From NCBI GenBank assembly GCA_002292325.1, contig DBBR01000072.1:47849-100375 (forward strand): a DNA stretch of 52,527 bases. The letters run 5' to 3'. Below the pieces are notes generated by a model. It had not been told where the DNA came from and searched no databases. It was given only the letters and a program-made list of their open reading frames with translations. Positions 2,700-39,742 of the stretch are shown piece after piece. The DNA comes from Flavobacteriales bacterium UBA979. Its GTDB lineage: Bacteria; Bacteroidota; Bacteroidia; Flavobacteriales_D; Sanyastnellaceae. The translations under genes were made by a program, and so were the position numbers. Position 1 is the first letter of the stretch; each line of letters opens with the position of its first letter.

Positions 2700-2783
2700 A
2701 CAGGTTCATGGAGGACTAATTGCGATTTCATGGCCTATTTCCGCGAAAAATTGCGTATTTTCTATTTGCTTAACGATGAAATT

Positions 2784-4565
2784 ATGATGCGGAGCTTTGT
2801 TCTTGCTTTAGTGACTTTGGGTTGCTTTGGAGCGATTCTGGAAGCCAGAGGGCAGCAAGGACCGTGCAATTGCTTGCCGATTGCCGATCGCCCAACAAAG
2901 GAAGTTACGGATCAGGCCGGGCTAGGAACGGGAACAGCCACATGGAGCTGTGACACGGTTTATGTTCTAACGGAAACAGTCTTTGTGAACGAAGGAGATG
3001 CATTGACCATCGAGCCGGGTACGCTTATTCAAGGTCGAACAGGCCTCGTAGTTGACACGTTGACCTACGTCCTGCCCAATGGCAATCCTTCTCCTCGCCA
3101 GGATTATGTTTTTGGCCAAGAGGCCGGCAGTTTGGTGGTGAGCAAGGGTGCGAGCATTTTAGCGGATGGATCCTCCAATTGCCCCATTGTGTTTACGTAT
3201 GAAGGCGATCCAATGGATGGGAGCACGGGGTATGATACCAGAGGAATGTGGGGAGGATTAATCCTCTGCGGTGATGGTGAATTGAACACATTCGATGGAG
3301 AGGATGAAATAGAAGGAATCGTGGATGTGACGGGACAAGATCGGCATGTTTATGGTGGAGATGGCAGCACGTTCCAGAATTCGGGCATTGTTCGATACGT
3401 CAGTCTGCGGCATGCGTCCACGTCCATGGGGATAAGTCAATTTGAAAATGGATTGGAAACCAATGCACTTACTCTTTGCGGTGTGGGGGAAGAGACAACC
3501 GTCGAATTTGTTGAAGCCATCGCAAGTGGGGATGACGGTGTTCAGGTGTTTGGAGGAAATGTCAATGTTCGTTACCTCGGTCTGGCGTTCAATCAGGAAG
3601 ATGGATTGGAATACGATCAAGGTTGGCAAGGCAAAGGACAGTTTATTTTTGTCGTGACAGACGAATTGAATGGAGCAGGAGAACATGCGGGCGATTACGA
3701 AGGGGATGATTACGAGGAGTTTGATGTGGCCATGACATTCATGCCCTATTCGAATCCTTTGTTGTACAACCAAACCTACCTGGGGAGGGGTCAGGCCACA
3801 GCCATTCGAATGCACAACGGTGCGGGTTTGCGCATGCACAATAGCTTGATTGTGTCGTTTGAACTTGGGATTGATTTTGAAGATGAAGATCCCTGCGATG
3901 CTTGGGAACTGTTGCTTTTTGGGGAAACGAACATCGAGAACAATCGATTCTGGGCCATCGGAGACTCGACTCAGCTCGATGAGATGATTTTGTACAACGC
4001 GGGGTTTGTATTCAATGGCCAAGAAGAAGTAGAAGCTCATTTTGTTGAGAACAACAATTATGCAGCGAATCCGGGAGTGGATTTTGAATTCTCATCGGTG
4101 GACGGGCATGTGACGGATCCGATCAATCTAACACCTGATGCCACGTTAGAAATGACCGTGAACAGTGAATATTTACCGAGCGACGACTGGTTTTATCCTG
4201 TTGGTTACATCGGTGCATTTGCCAGTGATGGAACAAACTGGCTCACATGCTGGACGTACATGGAACAATTGGGATTGTTCGGTGAATGGATTCAAGGCGG
4301 TTCGGAGCTGGCTGGTTGCATGTACGACTTTGCTTGCAATTTTGATCCAAATGCAACGGTAGATGATGGCTCTTGTGAGGTTGAGAGTTGCTCAGGATGC
4401 ACATGGCCTGCTGCAGCAAATTATGATGCGACAGCGCTTTGGGATGATGGCTCATGCCAATGGCCCGATGGTGCATCATGCCCTGAAGACATTAACGCAG
4501 ATGGCCAAGTGAATACCATCGATTTGCTCATGTTTCTAAGTGCTTTCGGTGCAATTTGTCCGTGA
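2784..4565 (+). CDS. Secreted beta-helix protein with Cys-rich repeats and dockerin-like tail
   Basis: A 593-residue exported protein; the signal peptide is MMRSFVLALVTLGCFGAILE and onward, cleaved near the GQQ. Residues about 30-480 resemble a Bacteroidota family of right-handed beta-helix surface proteins: an IEPGTLIQG start, RGMWGGLILCG, EGIVDVTGQ, YGG, IVRYVSLRHAS, GVGEETTVEFVEA, DDGVQVFGG, and YDQGWQGKGQFIFVV. After that come two Cys-rich repeats (GCMYDFACNFDPNATVDDGS plus C, then GCTWPAAANYD...DDGSC). The last 28 residues form a dockerin-like segment, CPEDINADGQVNTIDLLMF, ending in a cysteine. No T9SS YPNP-type tail is present. Start 2784 or 2787 is chosen because it opens directly into the signal peptide. 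No function is known; a surface structural or adhesive role is likely. The upstream sequence resembles that of the giant gene at 14108. Confidence 0.85.
   Translation: MMRSFVLALVTLGCFGAILEARGQQGPCNCLPIADRPTKEVTDQAGLGTGTATWSCDTVYVLTETVFVNEGDALTIEPGTLIQGRTGLVVDTLTYVLPNGNPSPRQDYVFGQEAGSLVVSKGASILADGSSNCPIVFTYEGDPMDGSTGYDTRGMWGGLILCGDGELNTFDGEDEIEGIVDVTGQDRHVYGGDGSTFQNSGIVRYVSLRHASTSMGISQFENGLETNALTLCGVGEETTVEFVEAIASGDDGVQVFGGNVNVRYLGLAFNQEDGLEYDQGWQGKGQFIFVVTDELNGAGEHAGDYEGDDYEEFDVAMTFMPYSNPLLYNQTYLGRGQATAIRMHNGAGLRMHNSLIVSFELGIDFEDEDPCDAWELLLFGETNIENNRFWAIGDSTQLDEMILYNAGFVFNGQEEVEAHFVENNNYAANPGVDFEFSSVDGHVTDPINLTPDATLEMTVNSEYLPSDDWFYPVGYIGAFASDGTNWLTCWTYMEQLGLFGEWIQGGSELAGCMYDFACNFDPNATVDDGSCEVESCSGCTWPAAANYDATALWDDGSCQWPDGASCPEDINADGQVNTIDLLMFLSAFGAICP
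4479..4562 (+). other. Dockerin-like C-terminal segment of the beta-helix protein
   Basis: Residues 566-593 read CP-DIN-DG-VN-DLL-F----FG---C-P, an EF-hand-like calcium loop (D, N, D, Q, N/T, D positions) followed by a helix, as in one half of a type I dockerin. The same arrangement closes the giant protein at 23225-23308. Confidence 0.65.
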
Positions 4566-14107: not shown

Positions 14108-17100
14108 ATGATGCAGACGAAATTATCCATCGTGTTCGGATTGCTTGTAGGAATTACAAGTTTCTCCAACCCACTTTTTGCCCAAACTGAATGTTTTGGC
14201 TACGACGCTAACGCAAATGCGCCAGCCGGCTTCCAATTGGAAGTTGAGTCCTTCGCTACCTTCGACGGTACCGAAGCAACTCCAGCCTTAGCCGCCTTGG
14301 CAGGTTCCACGACCTACCGCATTTACCTTCAAACAAATTCCGCATTGGATTTTGTCTCTGCAGTACACACGGATGGTGCTGAGGGAGAGGTTCAATTGAC
14401 TTCCAGCACATCATTCTACATGAACGATTTTGGAGGGATCACGGTGAATGCTATAAACCCGGGTCTCTTCTCGTTCTTTCCTGAATTGGAGTACGATAGC
14501 TATGTGACCATTGGACTGAATTCGGAGGCTGTGTCGAGCGCTGGAGAATCCTCTATTTCTTTGAGCGGTTCGGAAAGTTGGGGATCTAGCTTCCTCGCAG
14601 GAAACAACCTCAGCATTGATAGCTCAAATTCCGCTGCAGGAAGTGGTTGGTTTGTCGATGCAGATGCGGCGAACGGTTTTGCGGGAGATGATATGAAGGT
14701 TATGCTCGCGCAGGTCACTACAGATGGTGTATTGAATGGCGCATTTTTTGTTGAAATTTTGGCCGATGGTGCAGAATCAGCTCAAAGCTATCAGTTTTCT
14801 TTCAGCAATGAGTTGTGTGGTTGCACAGATGGAGCAGCTTCCAACTACGAGGCAGGAGCAACGCAAGACGATGGTTCATGCCTTTACCCGGGTTGCACAG
14901 ATGACGCGGCTTGTAACTATGATTCAGGCGCCAACGACGATGATGGTAGTTGCGATTTTTGCTGCGATACCGTAGAGTCTTCGAATGCAGATTACGGTGT
15001 AGAAGTTGAGCTTCACGCAGTGGGTGGAATTACTGGATTTCGAACCTACCGTTTGTATGTTACGACAGCCAATGCAACAGACGCTGTTTCCGCTGTAACC
15101 GGTTACGCTGCATATCCCATGAATTTAGCGACGTCGACGGACTTTTACCAGTACTTAGGTCCTGGTGGAGGATCTACCCCAAATGGTTGGCAATCAGCCT
15201 TTGGTGTCATTCCAGAATTTGCTGCTGGTGCGTATGACTCATTTGTGACGATTGGAAACACTGAAATGGCAGATGCCGGTGCGGGTGAGTCCGATATACA
15301 AACTGTATCTACTCCAGGTGAAGACTGGGAAGCAGAATTTGAAGCAGGCAATGATATCTCGATTGAGTCGACCTCCGGTGGTGGATGGTTTCTATCACCA
15401 GGTTCTGTAAGTGGAATTGCCGGTGATGACAACCGTGTTTTAATTGGCCAATTCACGACCAATGGATTCTTAAGCGGAGACTTATTTGTACAGGTGTTCC
15501 CTGAAGGCAATCAATTAGCCAGTGAAGAAGTCTATATTTCCTTCACATCACCAGCATGTGCCTGCACAGATGAAACTGCATGCAACTTTGATCCAGTGGC
15601 TATGTGGGATGACGGGTCTTGTCAAGACGGTCCTGCATATTGGGGCGAAAACATCGATTGTGAAGGCAACTGCTTGAACGATGCTGACGGAGATTATGTA
15701 TGCGATGAAAATGAAATTGAGGGTTGTTTGAACCCGAACGCTTGTAATTATGTCGAAGCACCAACAGACTTGGTTTCTTGTATTTTCCCAGACGAAGGAC
15801 TGGATTGTGATGGCAACTGCCTGAGCGATGTGGACGGAGATGGAGTTTGTGATCAAGATGAGCTCGGAGGTTGCACAGATGCAACAGCTTGTAACTATGA
15901 TGAAACCGCAACAGAAGACAATGGAACTTGTGATTACCTAGATGTCTTGGTGTTGGATGATGAGCCAGTCATCGTTTATGACTGCGACGGTAATTGCTTC
16001 AATGACACGGACGGTGACGGCGTGTGTGACGAATTAGAAATTGATGGTTGTACAGATGACTCAGCTTGCAACTATGATGAAGCTGCCTCAGAAGAGGATG
16101 GATCGTGTGATTACTGCTGTGCTTCCGGAGCTTCAGTTGTAGGTTACAACATCATCATCGAAGATATGGGGGATTCTCCTGAAGGAATGATTCAGCGCAT
16201 GTACATCGAAACTCCGAATTCAACGGATGTTTTATCAGCCGTTACGGGTGATGTACTGAACCCCACATACATCCGTTCGACGCAGTCGTTCTTCCAGTCT
16301 CCACTCGGTGACATAACACCGAACGGAATCAACCCTGCTTTCTTCCCAATTTTTGAGGAATTGGCTTATGACAGTTGGGTAACGATCGGAATTGAGAACA
16401 ACATGCTTTCTCCTACGGAATCAAGTGTTCAAATAGTACCTCCAACAACAGATTGGCAAGCGGCCTTTAATGCGGGCGGTGACATCGAGTTAGAAGGTGA
16501 TTTCGGGGACGGTTGGTTTGTCATTTGGGATGAAACTTCAGGAACTTACACAAACGGTCTTTCGGGTGACGATAACCGCATACTTGTGGGTCAATTCACT
16601 ACGAATGGAGTTTTGAGTGGTGAGTTATTTGTGCAGATGTTCCCCGAGGGAGATCAGCAAAATCCAATTCAAGTGCACTTGCCGTTTGGATATGCGAGTG
16701 ATGATGCTGACGCACCAGTCTTTACTTCCGTGCCTGCTGACGTGACTCAAAGTTGCTCAGAAGCATGGCCTACTGAAATGGCCACGGCTACGGACGAAGG
16801 CTGTATCGCGGAAGTTACATTGACTGTCGAAGAAACGTTAGCCGATGCAGATTGCGGATACGTTTTGACGCGAACTTTCACAGCAACTGATGCGTGGGGT
16901 AACTCTGCTGTTGCCACCCAAGTTGTGAGCCTCGAGGACAATGAAGCACCTGTTGCTGTTGCTCCAGCTGACGCTACAGCCCAATGTTCTGATGACTTAA
17001 CACCGGGTTCTGGTGTGGCTGAATTCCCAACGAACTCGTATGACAACTGCTCTGATGATTTAAGTTTCAGCTACGTTGATACTCCATACAGCCCCGGCTT

Positions 17101-20100
17101 TGACCTAGATGGGGTAGTAGCTGATTTCCATGTGGAAATGGGTAAAGATTTTGGAGGACCTTTCGGACAATCATTGATCTTGGAAGCTACAGGTGTGACC
17201 ATTGGTTCTGGCGCTGAAATTGGCTACGGTGATTTGGTTTCAAATCCTTCATCACACCGTGGCGCGATTGCTGTGGATATTGAAGGCTCAACCATCAACA
17301 TGTCTGTTGTCGGAACAGACGGTTTCCCTTACCAATACGACTATGCTGTCGTAACCGTTTCGAACATGTCGATTGATGACTTGGCTGGCGTTTCGGTTGT
17401 TACCAACGGTATTGCCGCTGGTGCCGAACTTACCACTTCATCTTCTGGAGATGGCTTTACGGTGACTTGGACAGGCACGGCGACTTTCACAGAAAATGAT
17501 GCGGCTGAGTTTGCTGCTGACAACGTTTCTTCATGCTTAGCCCAGTCTGGTTTGATGCGAACATGGACCGTAACTGATGGCTGTGATAATAGCGATACAG
17601 CCGTGCAGTACTTCACAATCGTTGATACAGAAGGACCGGTCTTTACGTCTACGCCAGCCAATTTACAATTGAGCTGCAACGACGAAATTCCAATGGCAAC
17701 TGTTTCTGCGGAAGATTGCGGTGCGGTGTCCATCTCTGACCCCGTTGAGGAGACTCAAGAAGGAACATGTGGAACTTCTTACACTATTTTCCGAACATGG
17801 ACCGCTTCTGATGACTGCGGCAACTCTTCTGAGCACACGCAGACCATCATGGTCGTAGATACCGAGGCACCTGTCTTCACATCGTTCCCAGCGGATGTCA
17901 CGTACACCTTTGGTGAGGAAATGATGTCTGACGAACCCACTGCTTCTGATGATTGCAACGAGGTTACCATCGACTTTAGTGATGCGCAGGACAACAGCAA
18001 TGTTGAAATTACGGTGATTACAAGAACATGGACTGCAACGGATGCCTGTGGAAACAGTGTTTCACAAGACCAAATAATTACCGTGAATGAGGTGTTTGGA
18101 TGCATGGATGATGAAGCTTGTAACTACGCCAGTGGAGCATCCTATGATGACGGAAGCTGCGATTACTGTTCTTGTGGATCTGGAGGAGAAGCTGGATTTG
18201 GATTGGAGCTTGAATTGGTAACAACCCATGATGGTTCAAACCCTGACTTGCCTGTTGGCTTGAACACATATCGGGTTTACGTTACGACTCCGAGCAATGA
18301 TGATTTTGTGAGTTCTGTTTCTGGAAGTATGGATGTACCGGCCTACTTGAATACGACCACGTCATTTTATCAGCACCCATTTGGCTCAATTAGCCCTGAC
18401 AACATCAATACGGCCTTCTATGCTGTTGTACCAAGTTTGTTGTACGATAGCTGGTTGACCATTGGTTTGGATTCACAGCCTGCTGGTGGTCAAAGTGCCA
18501 TCACATTTGTCGAAGCTCCTGCGGACAATTGGATGGCTGATTTCAACGCGGGGAATAACCTGAGCATCGATAGTTTCTTTGGAGGTTCTTGGTTCGCCTT
18601 GATCACAGCAAACAACGGATATGCTGGAGATGATCAGCGTGTACTGGTGGCCCAATTGACTACGGATGGTGAGTTGAACGGACAGTTGTACGTGCAAGTC
18701 TTCCCGAACGGAGACCAAAGCCAGGATACTTATCTCACTTTAAGCTTTGGAGGCAATGAGTGTGGTTGTAACGACGAAATGGCATGCAACTACGATGCTT
18801 CTGCGACATACGATGACGGTTCGTGCTATTATGCATTAGATGGCGAGGAATGTGAAGCGTTGGGATGCATGATTTCATTGGCATGTAACTACGACGCCGA
18901 CGCCAATACAGACGATGGTTCATGCGAGTTTGCCTCATGCGCAGGATGTATGGACGAAACGGCATGTAACTATGACATGGATGCTACAGTGCCTGGATTC
19001 TGTGAATTCCCTGCTTTTGCTTGGGAAGATTGCGATGGAGGTTGCGCTGATGGCTTCGATGAGAACGGGAATGGAATCTGTGATCCGCTCGATTTCGGTG
19101 GTTGCACCGATACTGCTGCCTTGAACTACTCTCCATTCGCTACCTATGACGATGGCAGCTGCATTGCTTCCGTTTCAGGTTGCACGAATGTGAATGCCTG
19201 TAATTATGATAGCACTGCTACCTTGAATGACTCAGGTTCTTGCATCTACCCAGAGAGCATTTATGTCGACTGCGATGGCAATTGCTCGAATGATACGGAT
19301 GGAGATGGGGTATGCGATGAATTCGAAATCCCAGGCTGTACGGACGCAACTGCTGTTAATTTCAACGCTTTTGCAACGGATGATAACGGCACATGTTTCT
19401 ACACCGACGTGGTCGGTTGCTTGGTGCCAAGCTTGCCTTGCTACGATCCGGATGCGACGGTGATGCCTTCGATTTCATTGTGTTTTGATTGCACCGATGG
19501 AACAGGAGATTCTCCAACTCCACTTGGCGTTATCACAGAATGCACGGATGAAGCGGCTTGTAACTTTGGTGAGGACGGCGAATGCGAGTACTCTTCCTGC
19601 ATGGGTTGCACGGTGCCTACAGCATGCAACTACGACGAAGAGGCTGTGTACTTCGACGGTACATGTGAATACACCTCATGTGCTGGATGTACATTGGCTA
19701 GCGCTTGTAACTTTGATCCTGAAGCATCTATCAATGATGGTTCTTGTGAATTCACAAGTTGCACGGGTTGTACGGATGAAAATGCATCGAATTACGATCC
19801 TACAGCGACTGTTGATAATGGCAGCTGTGATTTCGCTGGTTGCATGATTTCGGCAGCATGTAACTATGATGCCTCTGCGACTTCAAGTGATGGAAGTTGT
19901 GAATTTGAATCATGTGCGGGATGTCTATCGGAGTTAGCATGTAATTATGATGATTCAGCCACGTTGCCAGGTGCTTGTGATTTCACAAGTTGCGTCGGAT
20001 GTACAAACCCAGCAGCGGATAACTACGATTCAGACGCCACGCAAGACGACGGCTCATGCGTAGTAACAGGTTGTATTGACCCTATGGCATGCAACTATGA

Positions 20101-23100
20101 CGACGCTGTGAACAATGCGGATTACGATTCTTGCACGTATGCTGAGGAAGGATTGGACTGCGACGGAGTTTGCTTGAATGACGTCAATCCAGCCAACGGT
20201 GTTTGTGATGAAGATGAAATTGTGGGTTGCATGGAAGAAGGCAACTGCCTATACGATCCAGAGGCAACTGCCAATGATCCAACGATGTGTCAGACATCTC
20301 CATTCTGCATTGGTTGCAATGATGCCACGGCATGCAATTTCAATCCAAATGTGAACCCTGAACCAAACTTCAACGATGGCTCATGTGAATATGAAACATG
20401 CGCAGGTTGTTTGGATGAAGCTGCTTGTAACTTCGACTTTGAAGCGACGCTCTCTGATGCATCGGCTTGTGAATATCCTGCTGAAGGATTTGATTGCGCA
20501 GGAAACTGCTTCGATAATAACGGCGACTTGATCTGTGACATCCTCCAAGGGTGCGCTGAGCCAGATGCTTGCAATTATGAGGAAGGAATTGAATTCCCAT
20601 CCTTGGATTTCTGTGACTTCTGCAGCTGCCCTAATATCGAATCTTCGGTTGACGGATATGGAATCGAAATTGAGGAGTTGACTTCTGAAATCGATGGAGC
20701 GATGACTTACCAAGTCTTTGTTACTACGCCAAGTTCGACTGATGTAGTGAACGCCATCTTGGGTAACGAAATGAATCCAATTGTTCTGGCATCTTCAAGT
20801 GAGATTTACCAAAATGTAGCCGGTTCAGCGTTGCCTTCACCAGCAGCCATGTTTGCCTTCTACCCAATGCTCCAGTACGATTCGTATGTGACTTTGGGTG
20901 CAGACACCCCTGCCGATGCAATGGCTTTCCCTCCAACAGCAGACGGAAATGAACCAACATGGGTCACTTCATTTGAAAACGGAGGAAACATCGAAATCAT
21001 GGACGCCGTTGGTAGCGGTTGGTACATGAACGCTGATGTAATGGGCCAGTACGGAGTAGCAGGTGATGACAACCGAGTAATGGTTGCTCAATTGACGACT
21101 CCAGGTTCTATCCATGGTCAGTTGTATGTGCAGGTGTTCCCTGACGGACTGTCTGCAGGTAATACATTGTATGTGAACTTATCCTTTGGAAGCGCCGCGT
21201 GCGGATGTACAGATCCAATGGCATGTAACTACGAAGATGATAACGTCACAGATGACGGATCTTGCTTCTATGCAGCTGAAGGGGAGTCTTGTGGTGCAAC
21301 ATGCTTGTACGATACATTCAATCCAGAAGTAGTCGCTTTTGAAGAGTCCTACACGACTTCCTGTGATGATGCTGAAACGGATGTGCGTGAGCCAATGTTC
21401 TCAGACAATTGCGATGATCTGCTCGATGTCACTTCAAGTGACGTGGTCTTCGAAGGTGATTGCAATGGGTCTTACACCATTGAGCGAACGTGGACAGCAT
21501 TCGATAACATTGGCAATTCCATATCAGTTGTTCAGACCATTAACGTTGTTGATTCAACGGGTCCTTCGTTTACGGTGCCTGCCGACGTCAACATCGCTTG
21601 TTCGAATGGGGACATTGATCCTTCGGCAACAGGCGACGTAACTGATGCCTCTGATTGTAGCGGAACAGCTCAGGTTTCATACGCTGACGCTTACACCACG
21701 GATGGTTGCTTTGCCAACAACGTCTTGACACGAACGTGGACAGTCACGGATGATTGTGGTAACTCAACTTCTCAAGAGCAAACCATCACGCTAGTGGATG
21801 ATAACGCGCCATACTTCACAAGTGTACCAGCATCTGCTACGTTGACATGCAGTGATGCATTGCCAACTGAAATGGCTACGGCTGCTGACGCATGCTCTGA
21901 GGTAACAGTAACATTCACGGACGCTGAAGGTGACCTGACATGCAGTGGTTTGACTGAAGTGATACGAACATTCACAGCCACAGACGCTTGCGGAAATTCA
22001 AGCGAGGCAACACAGGTGATTTCATTTGTGGACGAAGAAGCACCTGAGGGTTCTACTACGGATGCAACAGTTGCCTGCTCATCGTATGATGGGTCTGCAG
22101 AATTTGGTTCGTACGAAGCATCAGACAACTGTTCTGGAGCTGTAACAGCTACTTGGATGGAGGTGTCATCTACCCAAGATGGTGAGATGGGATGCTTTGT
22201 AGTCGAGCGTGAGTATACTTTCACAGACGGATGCGGCAACAGCTCAACTGCGATGCAGACGATCACCGTAGTGGATGACGAAGCACCTGTTTTGAGTTCA
22301 ATAGACGCAGAAGTGGTACTCCAATGTGGAGACGTTCTGCCTGATGCACCAACTGCAACGGACAATTGTTCTTCTGTCGAAGTAACATTCGAAGATGTTG
22401 ACAACGGGTTGAGCTGCTCTGGTGAGATGTCCTTCATCCGCACGTATACGGCTACTGACGCTTGTGGAAATAGCAGCACGGTAACACAGAGCGTATCTTA
22501 CGACGATGTGATTGCTCCTACATTCACGGCTCCAGCAGATGTGACAATTGAATGCGATTCAGACCTTTCTGACTTGAGCTTGACAGGCGATGTGATGGAT
22601 GCAGCAGATGTATGCAGCGCGGACATCTTCGTTACGTATGCTGACGTCATGAGTACTTCTGAAGGTTCTTGCTTGGCAAACAATGTCATTACGCGAACTT
22701 GGACGGTAACCGATGGTTGTGGCAATAGCACATCCGCAGAACAAGTAATCACGTTGGAAGACACGACGGCACCCGTTGTAACATATGACGCGGTTGTTAC
22801 GCTTGATAATGTTGCGACAAGTGAACTCGATGATTTCGAAGGTGTAGAGGTTATGGACGCTTGCAGCGACTGGACTTATACATCAACGGATACATGGCTC
22901 GGCAATAGCCTAACAGGATATGAGCTGAACCGTGTCATGACATTCACAGATGCTTGTGGAAACTCTACGACAATCGAACAATCGATCATAGCGGTTTACT
23001 CTTCAGGTTGTACATACGTGGATGCAGAAAACTACGACGCAGCTGCGATTGTGGATGATGGTTCATGTGAGTATGCTGGCTGTACCGATATGACATCTGC

Positions 23101-23311
23101 GAATTACAACCCGATCGCTTCCATCGATGATGGATCATGTGTAACGGTTGGTTGCATGGATCCTGACGGCTACGACTTCGATCCGAATGCAAACTACCCA
23201 GGTGGTTGTGACTATCCAGATCCATGTCCGGGAGACATCAACGACGACGGTGTCGTGAATGTTGGTGACTTATTGGAGTTCTTCCAATACTACGGGCAGA
23301 CCTGCGAATAG
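14108..23311 (+). CDS. Giant secreted mosaic protein, 3067 residues
   Basis: A single uninterrupted reading frame for a 3067-residue exported protein; the signal peptide MMQTKLSIVFGLLVGITSFS is cut near FAQ. Domain order in residues: unnamed modules M1 (39-237), M2 (295-486) and M3 (676-864), separated by Cys-rich repeats and DCDGNC..DGDGVCD loops; a run of four HYR-like immunoglobulin-fold repeats (868-1329), one with a large insert; M4 (1362-1554); a Cys-rich tract of about 620 residues; M5 (2182-2367); seven HYR-like repeats (2404-2966) ending TDACGNS; three Cys-rich repeats; and a dockerin-like tail (3040-3067). About 30 Cys-rich units occur in all. No enzyme motif and no T9SS YPNP tail are visible. 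It is probably a calcium- and disulfide-stabilised surface fibre or adhesin. Start 14108 or 14111 is chosen from the signal peptide. Confidence 0.9.
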   Translation: MMQTKLSIVFGLLVGITSFSNPLFAQTECFGYDANANAPAGFQLEVESFATFDGTEATPALAALAGSTTYRIYLQTNSALDFVSAVHTDGAEGEVQLTSSTSFYMNDFGGITVNAINPGLFSFFPELEYDSYVTIGLNSEAVSSAGESSISLSGSESWGSSFLAGNNLSIDSSNSAAGSGWFVDADAANGFAGDDMKVMLAQVTTDGVLNGAFFVEILADGAESAQSYQFSFSNELCGCTDGAASNYEAGATQDDGSCLYPGCTDDAACNYDSGANDDDGSCDFCCDTVESSNADYGVEVELHAVGGITGFRTYRLYVTTANATDAVSAVTGYAAYPMNLATSTDFYQYLGPGGGSTPNGWQSAFGVIPEFAAGAYDSFVTIGNTEMADAGAGESDIQTVSTPGEDWEAEFEAGNDISIESTSGGGWFLSPGSVSGIAGDDNRVLIGQFTTNGFLSGDLFVQVFPEGNQLASEEVYISFTSPACACTDETACNFDPVAMWDDGSCQDGPAYWGENIDCEGNCLNDADGDYVCDENEIEGCLNPNACNYVEAPTDLVSCIFPDEGLDCDGNCLSDVDGDGVCDQDELGGCTDATACNYDETATEDNGTCDYLDVLVLDDEPVIVYDCDGNCFNDTDGDGVCDELEIDGCTDDSACNYDEAASEEDGSCDYCCASGASVVGYNIIIEDMGDSPEGMIQRMYIETPNSTDVLSAVTGDVLNPTYIRSTQSFFQSPLGDITPNGINPAFFPIFEELAYDSWVTIGIENNMLSPTESSVQIVPPTTDWQAAFNAGGDIELEGDFGDGWFVIWDETSGTYTNGLSGDDNRILVGQFTTNGVLSGELFVQMFPEGDQQNPIQVHLPFGYASDDADAPVFTSVPADVTQSCSEAWPTEMATATDEGCIAEVTLTVEETLADADCGYVLTRTFTATDAWGNSAVATQVVSLEDNEAPVAVAPADATAQCSDDLTPGSGVAEFPTNSYDNCSDDLSFSYVDTPYSPGFDLDGVVADFHVEMGKDFGGPFGQSLILEATGVTIGSGAEIGYGDLVSNPSSHRGAIAVDIEGSTINMSVVGTDGFPYQYDYAVVTVSNMSIDDLAGVSVVTNGIAAGAELTTSSSGDGFTVTWTGTATFTENDAAEFAADNVSSCLAQSGLMRTWTVTDGCDNSDTAVQYFTIVDTEGPVFTSTPANLQLSCNDEIPMATVSAEDCGAVSISDPVEETQEGTCGTSYTIFRTWTASDDCGNSSEHTQTIMVVDTEAPVFTSFPADVTYTFGEEMMSDEPTASDDCNEVTIDFSDAQDNSNVEITVITRTWTATDACGNSVSQDQIITVNEVFGCMDDEACNYASGASYDDGSCDYCSCGSGGEAGFGLELELVTTHDGSNPDLPVGLNTYRVYVTTPSNDDFVSSVSGSMDVPAYLNTTTSFYQHPFGSISPDNINTAFYAVVPSLLYDSWLTIGLDSQPAGGQSAITFVEAPADNWMADFNAGNNLSIDSFFGGSWFALITANNGYAGDDQRVLVAQLTTDGELNGQLYVQVFPNGDQSQDTYLTLSFGGNECGCNDEMACNYDASATYDDGSCYYALDGEECEALGCMISLACNYDADANTDDGSCEFASCAGCMDETACNYDMDATVPGFCEFPAFAWEDCDGGCADGFDENGNGICDPLDFGGCTDTAALNYSPFATYDDGSCIASVSGCTNVNACNYDSTATLNDSGSCIYPESIYVDCDGNCSNDTDGDGVCDEFEIPGCTDATAVNFNAFATDDNGTCFYTDVVGCLVPSLPCYDPDATVMPSISLCFDCTDGTGDSPTPLGVITECTDEAACNFGEDGECEYSSCMGCTVPTACNYDEEAVYFDGTCEYTSCAGCTLASACNFDPEASINDGSCEFTSCTGCTDENASNYDPTATVDNGSCDFAGCMISAACNYDASATSSDGSCEFESCAGCLSELACNYDDSATLPGACDFTSCVGCTNPAADNYDSDATQDDGSCVVTGCIDPMACNYDDAVNNADYDSCTYAEEGLDCDGVCLNDVNPANGVCDEDEIVGCMEEGNCLYDPEATANDPTMCQTSPFCIGCNDATACNFNPNVNPEPNFNDGSCEYETCAGCLDEAACNFDFEATLSDASACEYPAEGFDCAGNCFDNNGDLICDILQGCAEPDACNYEEGIEFPSLDFCDFCSCPNIESSVDGYGIEIEELTSEIDGAMTYQVFVTTPSSTDVVNAILGNEMNPIVLASSSEIYQNVAGSALPSPAAMFAFYPMLQYDSYVTLGADTPADAMAFPPTADGNEPTWVTSFENGGNIEIMDAVGSGWYMNADVMGQYGVAGDDNRVMVAQLTTPGSIHGQLYVQVFPDGLSAGNTLYVNLSFGSAACGCTDPMACNYEDDNVTDDGSCFYAAEGESCGATCLYDTFNPEVVAFEESYTTSCDDAETDVREPMFSDNCDDLLDVTSSDVVFEGDCNGSYTIERTWTAFDNIGNSISVVQTINVVDSTGPSFTVPADVNIACSNGDIDPSATGDVTDASDCSGTAQVSYADAYTTDGCFANNVLTRTWTVTDDCGNSTSQEQTITLVDDNAPYFTSVPASATLTCSDALPTEMATAADACSEVTVTFTDAEGDLTCSGLTEVIRTFTATDACGNSSEATQVISFVDEEAPEGSTTDATVACSSYDGSAEFGSYEASDNCSGAVTATWMEVSSTQDGEMGCFVVEREYTFTDGCGNSSTAMQTITVVDDEAPVLSSIDAEVVLQCGDVLPDAPTATDNCSSVEVTFEDVDNGLSCSGEMSFIRTYTATDACGNSSTVTQSVSYDDVIAPTFTAPADVTIECDSDLSDLSLTGDVMDAADVCSADIFVTYADVMSTSEGSCLANNVITRTWTVTDGCGNSTSAEQVITLEDTTAPVVTYDAVVTLDNVATSELDDFEGVEVMDACSDWTYTSTDTWLGNSLTGYELNRVMTFTDACGNSTTIEQSIIAVYSSGCTYVDAENYDAAAIVDDGSCEYAGCTDMTSANYNPIASIDDGSCVTVGCMDPDGYDFDPNANYPGGCDYPDPCPGDINDDGVVNVGDLLEFFQYYGQTCE
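14222..14817 (+). repeat. Unnamed module, copy 1 of 5 in the giant protein
   Basis: About 199 residues. Signature elements: TYRIYLQTNSALDFVSAV, then SFYM, then a YDSYVTIG stretch, a GSGWF turn, GFAGDDMKVMLAQVTTDG, and FFVEILADG. The boundaries are approximate and end at a CGC junction with the first Cys-rich repeat. Confidence 0.75.
14990..15564 (+). repeat. Unnamed module, copy 2 of 5
   Basis: About 192 residues with TYRLYVTTANATDAVSAV, DFYQ, YDSFVTIG, GGGWF, GIAGDDNRVLIGQFTTNG and LFVQVFPEG. It ends at a CAC junction with a Cys-rich repeat, like copy 1. Confidence 0.75.
16135..16700 (+). repeat. Unnamed module, copy 3 of 5
   Basis: About 189 residues with QRMYIETPNSTDVLSAVTG, SFFQ, YDSWVTIG, GDGWF, GLSGDDNRILVGQFTTNG and LFVQMFPEGD. 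Unlike the other copies it runs directly into HYR-like repeats rather than a Cys-rich repeat. Confidence 0.75.
16709..18093 (+). repeat. HYR-like repeat block 1 (four units)
   Basis: Four immunoglobulin-like units, each ending in a variant of RTWTATDACGNS...QTI.VVD..AP. Each unit opens with a P(A)D(V/A)T or PANLQLSC strand and has a disulfide-type cysteine pair. The second unit carries a large insert (17084-17532). Confidence 0.75.
17084..17532 (+). other. Inserted domain inside an HYR-like repeat
   Basis: Between the strand SFSYVDTPYSP and the unit's closing strand CLAQSGLMRTWTVTD lie about 150 residues absent from all other HYR-like units here. The insert is Cys-free except at its edge, rich in Gly, Ser, Val and Thr, and strand-like (EATGVTIGSGAEIGYGDL; AVVTVSNMSIDDLAGVSVV). 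It looks like a separate beta-sandwich placed in a loop. Confidence 0.6.
18193..18769 (+). repeat. Unnamed module, copy 4 of 5
   Basis: About 192 residues with TYRVYVTTPSNDDFVSSVSG, SFYQ, YDSWLTIG, GGSWF, GYAGDDQRVLVAQLTTDG and LYVQVFPNGD. It ends ECGC at a Cys-rich repeat. Confidence 0.75.
18770..20625 (+). repeat. Long Cys-rich repeat tract of the giant protein
   Basis: About 618 residues made almost wholly of units of 20-30 residues with pattern GC(T/M/L)....ACNYD..A...DGSC (three cysteines per unit). Four acidic loops of the DCDGNC.ND.DGDGVCDE type are interspersed. Some nineteen units are readable, including degenerate ones. Further units flank the other modules. The sequence has high Asp, Cys, Asn and Ala content and no predicted enzymatic motif. 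Confidence 0.8.
20651..21208 (+). repeat. Unnamed module, copy 5 of 5
   Basis: About 186 residues with TYQVFVTTPSSTDVVNAILG, EIYQ, YDSYVTLG, GSGWYM, GVAGDDNRVMVAQLTTPG and LYVQVFPDG. It ends ACGC at a Cys-rich repeat. Confidence 0.75.
21318..23005 (+). repeat. HYR-like repeat block 2 (seven units)
   Basis: Seven immunoglobulin-like units of about 80 residues with closing strands such as RTWTVTDDCGNSTSQEQTIT and RTYTATDACGNSS, joined by VVD..AP linkers. The last unit departs from the pattern (IIAVYSSGC) and leads into Cys-rich repeats. Confidence 0.75.
23225..23308 (+). other. Dockerin-like C-terminal segment of the giant protein
   Basis: The last 28 residues begin CPGDINDDGVVNVGDLLEF and end QTCE. 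The calcium-loop pattern, the DLL helix and the flanking cysteines match the tail of the beta-helix protein at 4479-4562 nearly position by position. Confidence 0.65.
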
Positions 23312-37846: not shown

Positions 37847-39742
37847 ATGACTGCAAGATTCTTGATTCTTTGTGGAGCTTTATTTTTCGGATCATCCAGT
37901 TGGTCCCAATCTCCATTCCCATGTGAACTTTCTGGGGGTGAAGGAGATCCAGCGACAGGCGGATTGTCCGATACACAGGAAGGTCAATACCATGACAACA
38001 GCAATTTTTTCAATATCCTTGATTTGTATGAGCCCGTGACGTTGGTATCAGCCAAGGTTTTCGCAAATGGTGGGGGGCCAAGGACCTTTGCTTTGTTCTC
38101 GTTGGATGGCGATGTGCTTCAGGCAGAAGTGTTCGACGTTCCTGATGGAGAGAGCATTGTGGAATTCAATTGGACGATGGGTCCGGGAGTAGTAGGTCTT
38201 GGGTGCCTTTCAGGAGACCCTCAACTTTGGCGTGATGATTTGAACAGTGACATCAATTACCCATACGCCATTGGGGAGTATGGTGCAATTACAGGTACCA
38301 GCATTCAGGGCGACAATGAGTTTAACTATTATTACTTCTTCTATGACGTAACATTGGCTCCACAAGGTCCAACCGTTAACTCTGGCGGATACCCTTGTTC
38401 GAATGTGGAATTAATGGATGTCGAGTCTTTACAGGATCTTGGTGGCGGTGCAAATGGCAACGATTGCTGGGGTTGGATGGACAGTGAAACAGGCCGAGAA
38501 ATCGCGATTTATGGTCGTTCCACCGGAGCATCTTTCATCGATGTTACCGATGCCACGGATATGAAATATTTTGCAAATTTACCTACGGCGACCGATCCAA
38601 GTTTATGGCGCGACATCAAAGTCTACAATGGTTACGCGTTCATTGTTTCGGAAGCTGGAGGCCACGGTTTACAGGTGGTCGATTTGAATGCATTGTTGAA
38701 TTTGCCAACGGATGAGGTTACACAGATCCAACCAGATGCAACCTACGCTGGTTTTGGCAACGCACACAACATCATGATCAATGAAGAAACAGGGTTTGCC
38801 TATGCCATTGGAACCAACACATTCAGCGGTGGCATGCACATTTTGGATATTCAAGACCCATTGAATCCAACTTTGGTTGGTGCGTATGAGGGAGCCTATT
38901 CACACGATGTGCATCCCATCTTGTATCAAGGTCCGGATGCCGACTACGCAGGAAAGGAGATTGTGGTTTGTTTCAATGGCAATTCTGGAATTTCAATTGT
39001 AGATGTAGAAGACAAGTCTGATACGCAGTTGATTTCCCAATTATCCTATGCTGAATCAGGATACACGCACCAAGGCTGGGTTGGAGAAAATCACAGGTAC
39101 TGTTACTTCAACGATGAGTTGGATGAAATGAACTTCGGCAACAATACACGAACCTACATCATGGATATAACGGATCTAGATGCCCCGCAAATTGTTGGTT
39201 TCTATGAGGCACAGATAGAAGCGATTGATCACAACATGTACATTATTGGGGACAAATTGTATCAGTCCAATTACTTAAGCGGTTTGCGTGTTTTGGACTT
39301 GAGCGATGCCGAAAATGGAAACTTGGAGCTCGTAGGTTATTTCGATACAAACCCTGAATCCAATGCGCCATCTTTTAATGGAACTTGGAGCAACTACCCT
39401 TATTTCCCAAGTGGAAATATTGGGGTGAGTACGTTCACTCACTTCTTTATGGTTCGGCCGACAGCTGATATCGCTCCGAATCCCTCATCGGTGGTGATGA
39501 ATCCTCAACCTCTGAAAGCCGCGGTGTATCCAAACCCCGCGAATGAGTTCATTCGAATCGAGGGGTTTGAAGGCAATGCGACCATGGAAGTGCATGACTT
39601 GAATGGACGGTTGGTCAAGAGCTGGTCAACAATGCCTGTCCAGGATGGCCTTTGCCTCATGGTGGGCAGTTTACCTGCAGGGGTGTATGTTCTGAAAGGT
39701 GTGGAGTCGGGTCAATCTGCCCGTTTTATCATTCAACACTAG
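37847..39742 (+). CDS. Choice-of-anchor B (LVIVD repeat) protein with T9SS type A tail
   Basis: A 631-residue exported protein with signal peptide MTARFLILCGALFFGSSSWS. The central region has LVIVD-type beta-propeller blades (TSFIDVTDATDMKYFANLPT-like, HILDIQDPLNPTLVGAYEG, SIVDVEDKSDTQLISQL, YIMDITDLDAPQIVGFYE, RVLDLSDAENG), typical of the choice-of-anchor B family. The last about 75 residues form a T9SS type A sorting domain: YPNPANEFIRIEGF, MEVHDLNGRLVKSW, LPAGVYVLKG. It is therefore predicted to cross the outer membrane by the type IX system and be attached or released there. Its 3' end overlaps the convergent folP by 14 bases. Its substrate or ligand is unknown. Confidence 0.9.
   Translation: MTARFLILCGALFFGSSSWSQSPFPCELSGGEGDPATGGLSDTQEGQYHDNSNFFNILDLYEPVTLVSAKVFANGGGPRTFALFSLDGDVLQAEVFDVPDGESIVEFNWTMGPGVVGLGCLSGDPQLWRDDLNSDINYPYAIGEYGAITGTSIQGDNEFNYYYFFYDVTLAPQGPTVNSGGYPCSNVELMDVESLQDLGGGANGNDCWGWMDSETGREIAIYGRSTGASFIDVTDATDMKYFANLPTATDPSLWRDIKVYNGYAFIVSEAGGHGLQVVDLNALLNLPTDEVTQIQPDATYAGFGNAHNIMINEETGFAYAIGTNTFSGGMHILDIQDPLNPTLVGAYEGAYSHDVHPILYQGPDADYAGKEIVVCFNGNSGISIVDVEDKSDTQLISQLSYAESGYTHQGWVGENHRYCYFNDELDEMNFGNNTRTYIMDITDLDAPQIVGFYEAQIEAIDHNMYIIGDKLYQSNYLSGLRVLDLSDAENGNLELVGYFDTNPESNAPSFNGTWSNYPYFPSGNIGVSTFTHFFMVRPTADIAPNPSSVVMNPQPLKAAVYPNPANEFIRIEGFEGNATMEVHDLNGRLVKSWSTMPVQDGLCLMVGSLPAGVYVLKGVESGQSARFIIQH

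Follow-up and report, generated by a model that had tools for sequence, protein, structure and literature searches.

A giant five-module protein of Flavobacteriales bacterium UBA979 carries a dockerin-like C-terminal tag and is a candidate cell-surface docking scaffold

Results

We analyzed a 52,527-nucleotide stretch (the window) of the genome of Flavobacteriales bacterium UBA979, a member of a marine lineage, in which a single open reading frame (ORF) encodes a giant protein of 3067 amino acids (aa) (Table 1). The draft genome totals 2.04 Mb in 109 contigs and has a completeness of 73.9%. The N terminus of the giant resembles a signal peptide, as judged by eye, and the protein is strongly acidic, with 529 D and E residues versus 23 R and 3 K and a calculated isoelectric point of 4.05 for its mature part. 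Searches of Pfam and NCBIfam at E values of up to 1 returned no enzyme family beyond a weak match to SET7_N, below its cut-off. The giant is built of five modules of about 200 aa each (M1 to M5, 33-43% pairwise identity), separated by differing fillers that include HYR_4C units (PF23237; nine stretches, 139.7 bits versus a cut-off of 27), cysteine repeats of about 24 aa each (26 by a strict pattern, about 28 with degenerate copies counted by eye), and six loops of the CDGNC...DGDGVCD type. A first-pass annotation, made from the sequence alone, had described an intact 9.2-kb frame coding for an exported protein with no enzyme domain, five dispersed copies of a module each followed by a different filler, HYR-like repeats, about 30 Cys-rich repeats, and acidic D.DGDGVCD loops, all of which agrees with our findings. 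No characterized family with the full domain order was found in the libraries searched. The annotation missed the dockerin-like tag at the C terminus of the giant and the similar end of a second gene of the window (gene 2730-4565).

Table 1. Features of the giant gene and the second tagged gene, in window positions
Feature	Position	Strand	Remarks
Whole gene	14108..23311	+	3067 aa; start resembles a signal peptide; no enzyme domain detected
Module M1	14186..14818 (aa 27-237)	+	
Module M2	14963..15571 (aa 286-488)	+	
Cys repeats with CDGNC...DGDGVCD loops	15572..16108	+	
Module M3	16109..16723 (aa 668-872)	+	
First HYR_4C block, holding an insert of ~150 aa	16724..18097 (limits approximate)	+	
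Module M4	18164..18763 (aa 1353-1552)	+	Structure model, predicted local distance difference test (pLDDT) score 94.2
Long Cys-repeat array	18764..20614	+	Expanded relative to most orthologues
Module M5	20615..21202 (aa 2170-2365)	+	
Second HYR_4C block	21320..23005 (limits approximate)	+	
Last three Cys repeats, ahead of the tag	23006..23209	+	
C-terminal dockerin-like calcium loop-helix tag, bracketed by two cysteines	23225..23308	+	
Second tagged exported protein, 611 aa	2730..4565	+	Homologues are the tag proteins of outgroup clusters

The gene and its five-module architecture are conserved. We collected 53 loci with a related module from metagenome drafts mostly titled Flavobacteriales or Crocinitomicaceae; 30 of them include ffh, argS, or both, and 13 span the whole interval between these two genes. 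In all 13, one open frame encodes five modules, while the length of the protein (2613-3822 aa, stop to stop) and the number of Cys repeats (7-34, by a looser pattern) vary, indicating that spacer length drifts around a constant number of modules. A further locus, L058, has its frame split into three ORFs. This broken frame and the draft state of the UBA979 genome are what could be said for an assembly error having fused separate genes into the long frame, an explanation that the annotation itself had raised and to which, given the 13 intact five-module frames found elsewhere between ffh and argS, we attach almost no credence. The loci fall into two classes. Within each class, with the window included, the best match elsewhere of a module is always the module at the same position (70/70); between classes this holds for only 16/70, which indicates that the modules have been renewed or homogenized within classes.

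The annotation had also proposed an odd number of cysteines per repeat, and this claim falls. We counted cysteines in 1309 distinct internal repeat-plus-linker units (next repeat within 60 aa) from all sequence collected to that point, and their number was even in 1304. Repeats with a second cysteine are followed by a linker with an odd number of cysteines in 556 of 559 cases, and those without it by an even-numbered linker in 748 of 750, so that linker parity compensates for the second cysteine. We infer that a C1-C3 bond would form in every unit and that a C2-C4 bond would be gained or lost as a pair.

The last 28 residues of the giant, ending at the stop codon, correspond to one dockerin-type calcium loop-helix between two cysteines. 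Type I dockerins are defined by calcium ligands at loop positions 1, 3, 5, and 12 and by two tandem loop-helix repeats. The ligands occur at these positions in the window tag and in 91 of 100 distinct tags; the giant has one loop-helix copy instead of the double repeat, and some tagged relatives have two. Flanking cysteines are found in 89 of the 100 distinct tags, and in 50 of 106 tails, Cys repeats detected by pattern lie just ahead of the tag. The type I dockerin family PF00404 matches the giant at 12.8 bits (E value, 0.14), below its cut-off of 22.9, and no Pfam or NCBIfam model scored over its cut-off at the tag in the tagged proteins scanned. Our searches of open-access literature for a dockerin-like tail in Bacteroidota yielded no description of one.

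The tag is abundant, with at least 41 matches in the UBA979 draft and 89 in two near-complete relatives, and it is essentially terminal, lying within 4 aa of the stop in 63 of 82 matches. C-terminal signals of the type IX secretion system (T9SS) are divided into types A, B, and C in a review of the system (PMC10202324). Neither the giant nor the protein of gene 2730-4565 has a C-terminal match to the type A (TIGR04183, PF18962), type B (TIGR04131), or type C (NF033708) models, and none of the 32 tag ORFs of UBA979 carries any of the 53 over-cut-off type A signals of that genome. An exported protein encoded at 37847-39742 ends in a type A signal, so that both kinds of C terminus occur within the window.

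In one genome (G044), eight tagged genes (L222-L226, L229, L233, L234), out of 40 tagged genes retrieved, share a nearly identical tag and downstream terminator. In some pairs about 2 Mb apart, the similarity is limited to a segment that starts 20-30 bases ahead of the tag and stops 67 bases beyond the stop codon, which looks as though 3' ends had been copied between genes. The same genome has at least 11 tagged genes on one strand over about 95 kb (G044:C2:734-828 kb), several of them encoding proteins of 1000-3000 aa.

The structure model of M4 suggests that the module is a beta-sandwich with weak similarity to cohesins. The cohesin family PF00963 does not appear among the families listed for 77 modules and has no match in the UBA979 genome. 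Four of the 14 module ORFs of UBA979 also carry the tag and three a type A signal; neither was seen in the other seven. In one locus (L137, G049), a 668-aa frame with an over-cut-off PF00963 match ends in a double dockerin-like tag, from which it appears that cohesin-like and tag parts can share one protein.

Across the 199 genomes of the order that we surveyed, the tag is nearly confined to the family of the window and is distributed with the module: each was found in 65 of the 66 genomes of this family versus 10 of the 133 others. SprA, a T9SS component, was found in 196/199. Outside the family, nine genomes have both tag and module, one the tag alone (G036, on short ORFs), one the module alone (G082), and 122 neither; the G082 contig stops within its second module gene, so that the assembly may lack a tag gene that the genome has. 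A Fisher test of the association gives P = 3.6e-12, but the nine genomes, which represent five genera in three families, cannot be counted as independent. Within the family, at the cut-offs used, G158 has the tag without the module and G134 modules without the tag. In the 49 family genomes outside the genus, the numbers of tags and modules, both counted as at-least values, correlate with a Spearman coefficient of 0.93 (0.88 for 18 genus means).

Each of the nine outgroup genomes has a tag gene immediately upstream of a module gene, and the cluster that holds them contains 4 to 6 separate module ORFs; one genome (G070) has an additional tandem tag elsewhere. All nine tag proteins are homologous to the protein of gene 2730-4565 (24-29% identity in the longest match). 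In L217, the single cluster read with curated models, there are four module proteins, three of which carry TIGR04183, along with a TonB-dependent receptor, a FISUMP lipoprotein, and a beta-barrel protein; the tag protein is also encoded there, and these models detected no T9SS signal in it. In the outgroup clusters L208-L217, the module proteins adjoin a large receptor-like protein, in L217 the TonB-dependent receptor. Within the family, the one tag detected in G104 is on this same protein, whereas the G062 tag sits on a protein with Cys repeats.

We then asked for the protein of gene 2730-4565, without its tag, in 49 genomes of the order that lie outside the family (G036, G082, and 47 genomes that lack both tag and module) and found a homologue in 42 of them (43 matches). 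We read the 30 whose loci were available, as homologues of unproven orthology; untagged homologues of the outgroup nine were not sought. Of the 30, 19 carry a lipobox (14 recognized by pattern and 5 by eye), nine have TIGR04183 at the C terminus, scoring over its cut-off, and two are cut short by the end of the locus; the tag is present in none. The tag thus seems to replace a lipid anchor or a T9SS sorting signal. In 13 of the 19 lipoproteins, a Cys repeat directly follows the lipobox (by eye), and in many tagged proteins, such repeats stand directly before the tag; we read the repeats at either end as a probable stalk next to the attachment point.

Discussion

Our preferred reading, which we hold tentatively and with slightly less than even confidence, is that the giant is a cell-surface scaffold of cohesin-dockerin-like type, on whose modules the tag docks. 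The tag would be a calcium-dependent docking handle and the module its receptor, as in the cohesin-dockerin pair; that the two dock is what we infer from their shared distribution, the clusters, and the swap of tag for anchor. Tagged proteins would be kept at the surface by module proteins, some of which bear T9SS signals; the giant, for its part, would act as an adaptor, offering five receptor sites while docking by its own tail. For the passage of tagged proteins through the outer membrane, one possibility is that they ride along with T9SS-exported module proteins.

The resemblance to cohesin-dockerin systems (PF00963, PF00404) lies in the calcium loop and helix of the tail, in the sandwich predicted for the module, with its weak similarity to cohesins, and in a multimodule giant that has a dockerin-like tail and exists alongside many other tagged proteins, an arrangement that recalls an adaptor scaffoldin. 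However, the module has no cohesin profile match, and the tag mostly has one loop-helix rather than two. On these two points, we do not class the system as cohesin-dockerin. It differs further in the cysteines that flank the tag, in its Gram-negative host with an outer membrane, and in the giant, in which no cellulase or carbohydrate-binding family was found.

The tag could instead be a sorting signal in its own right, a further C-terminal kind used by T9SS or by another exporter, in which case the giant would be an adhesin whose modules bind the environment, and tag and module would not touch. Like the known T9SS signals, the tag is terminal and occurs on dozens of the exported proteins of one genome; it occupies the place of the type A signal in homologous proteins, nine of which end in that signal, and in UBA979 the two share no ORF. 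The presence of SprA in nearly every genome of the order and the UBA979 module ORFs that carry either end would also fit. But T9SS is near-universal in the order, whereas the tag follows the module, occurs almost only in genomes that have it, and sits in the module cluster. Moreover, the untagged homologues are mostly lipoproteins rather than T9SS substrates, and the tag, a 28-residue segment whose calcium loop is that of docking modules, has no match to any type A, B, or C profile. We consider a sorting signal rather unlikely.

Still less probable, in our estimation, is that the tag is a mere C-terminal cap that lends stability through calcium and a disulfide, that the giant is released freely as a matrix protein, and that the link with the module reflects shared ancestry in one gene cluster. 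The flanking cysteines, the Cys repeats that often precede the tag, and the weakness of the cohesin similarity would agree with such a cap. Nevertheless, the homologues in other genomes bear, at one of their ends, an anchor or a sorting signal, neither of which would give way to a simple cap, and a cap need not be common to unrelated proteins or absent outside the genomes with the module.

The docking scaffold can be framed more specifically, as a possibility that we regard as doubtful. The system would be a noncellulosomal, outer-membrane analogue of cohesin-dockerin, with a new receptor family of cohesin-like sandwich and a new, minimal, Cys-bracketed class of dockerin, a pair that one Flavobacteriales family would have expanded from a small ancestral cluster until each genome had about 40-90 tagged proteins. 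It would complement lipid anchors and T9SS signals in placing proteins at the surface. Tag-bearing exported proteins, dozens per genome, would be missed by predictions from T9SS signals or lipoboxes, which hints at an overlooked route to surface protein assembly. If the tag docks to the module, dockerin-like surface assembly would no longer be confined to degraders of plant walls and would extend across an outer membrane.

The first-pass annotation had suggested a spacer-and-ligand fiber. The spacer part is in keeping with a constant set of five modules, variable spacers, calcium-type loops, and balanced cysteines; for the ligand part, no ligand of the module was found. Among known families, HYR_4C proteins share the nine stretches with the giant, in which HYR_4C is one kind of spacer among others. 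LapB-repeat adhesins (NF033932) are likewise giant, acidic, repetitive, and exported, but the giant has one NF033932 stretch, at 32.2 bits versus a cut-off of 45. Within the first HYR_4C block, the inserted ~150 aa (window ~17060-17527, ~aa 985-1140) differ in appearance from the other units.
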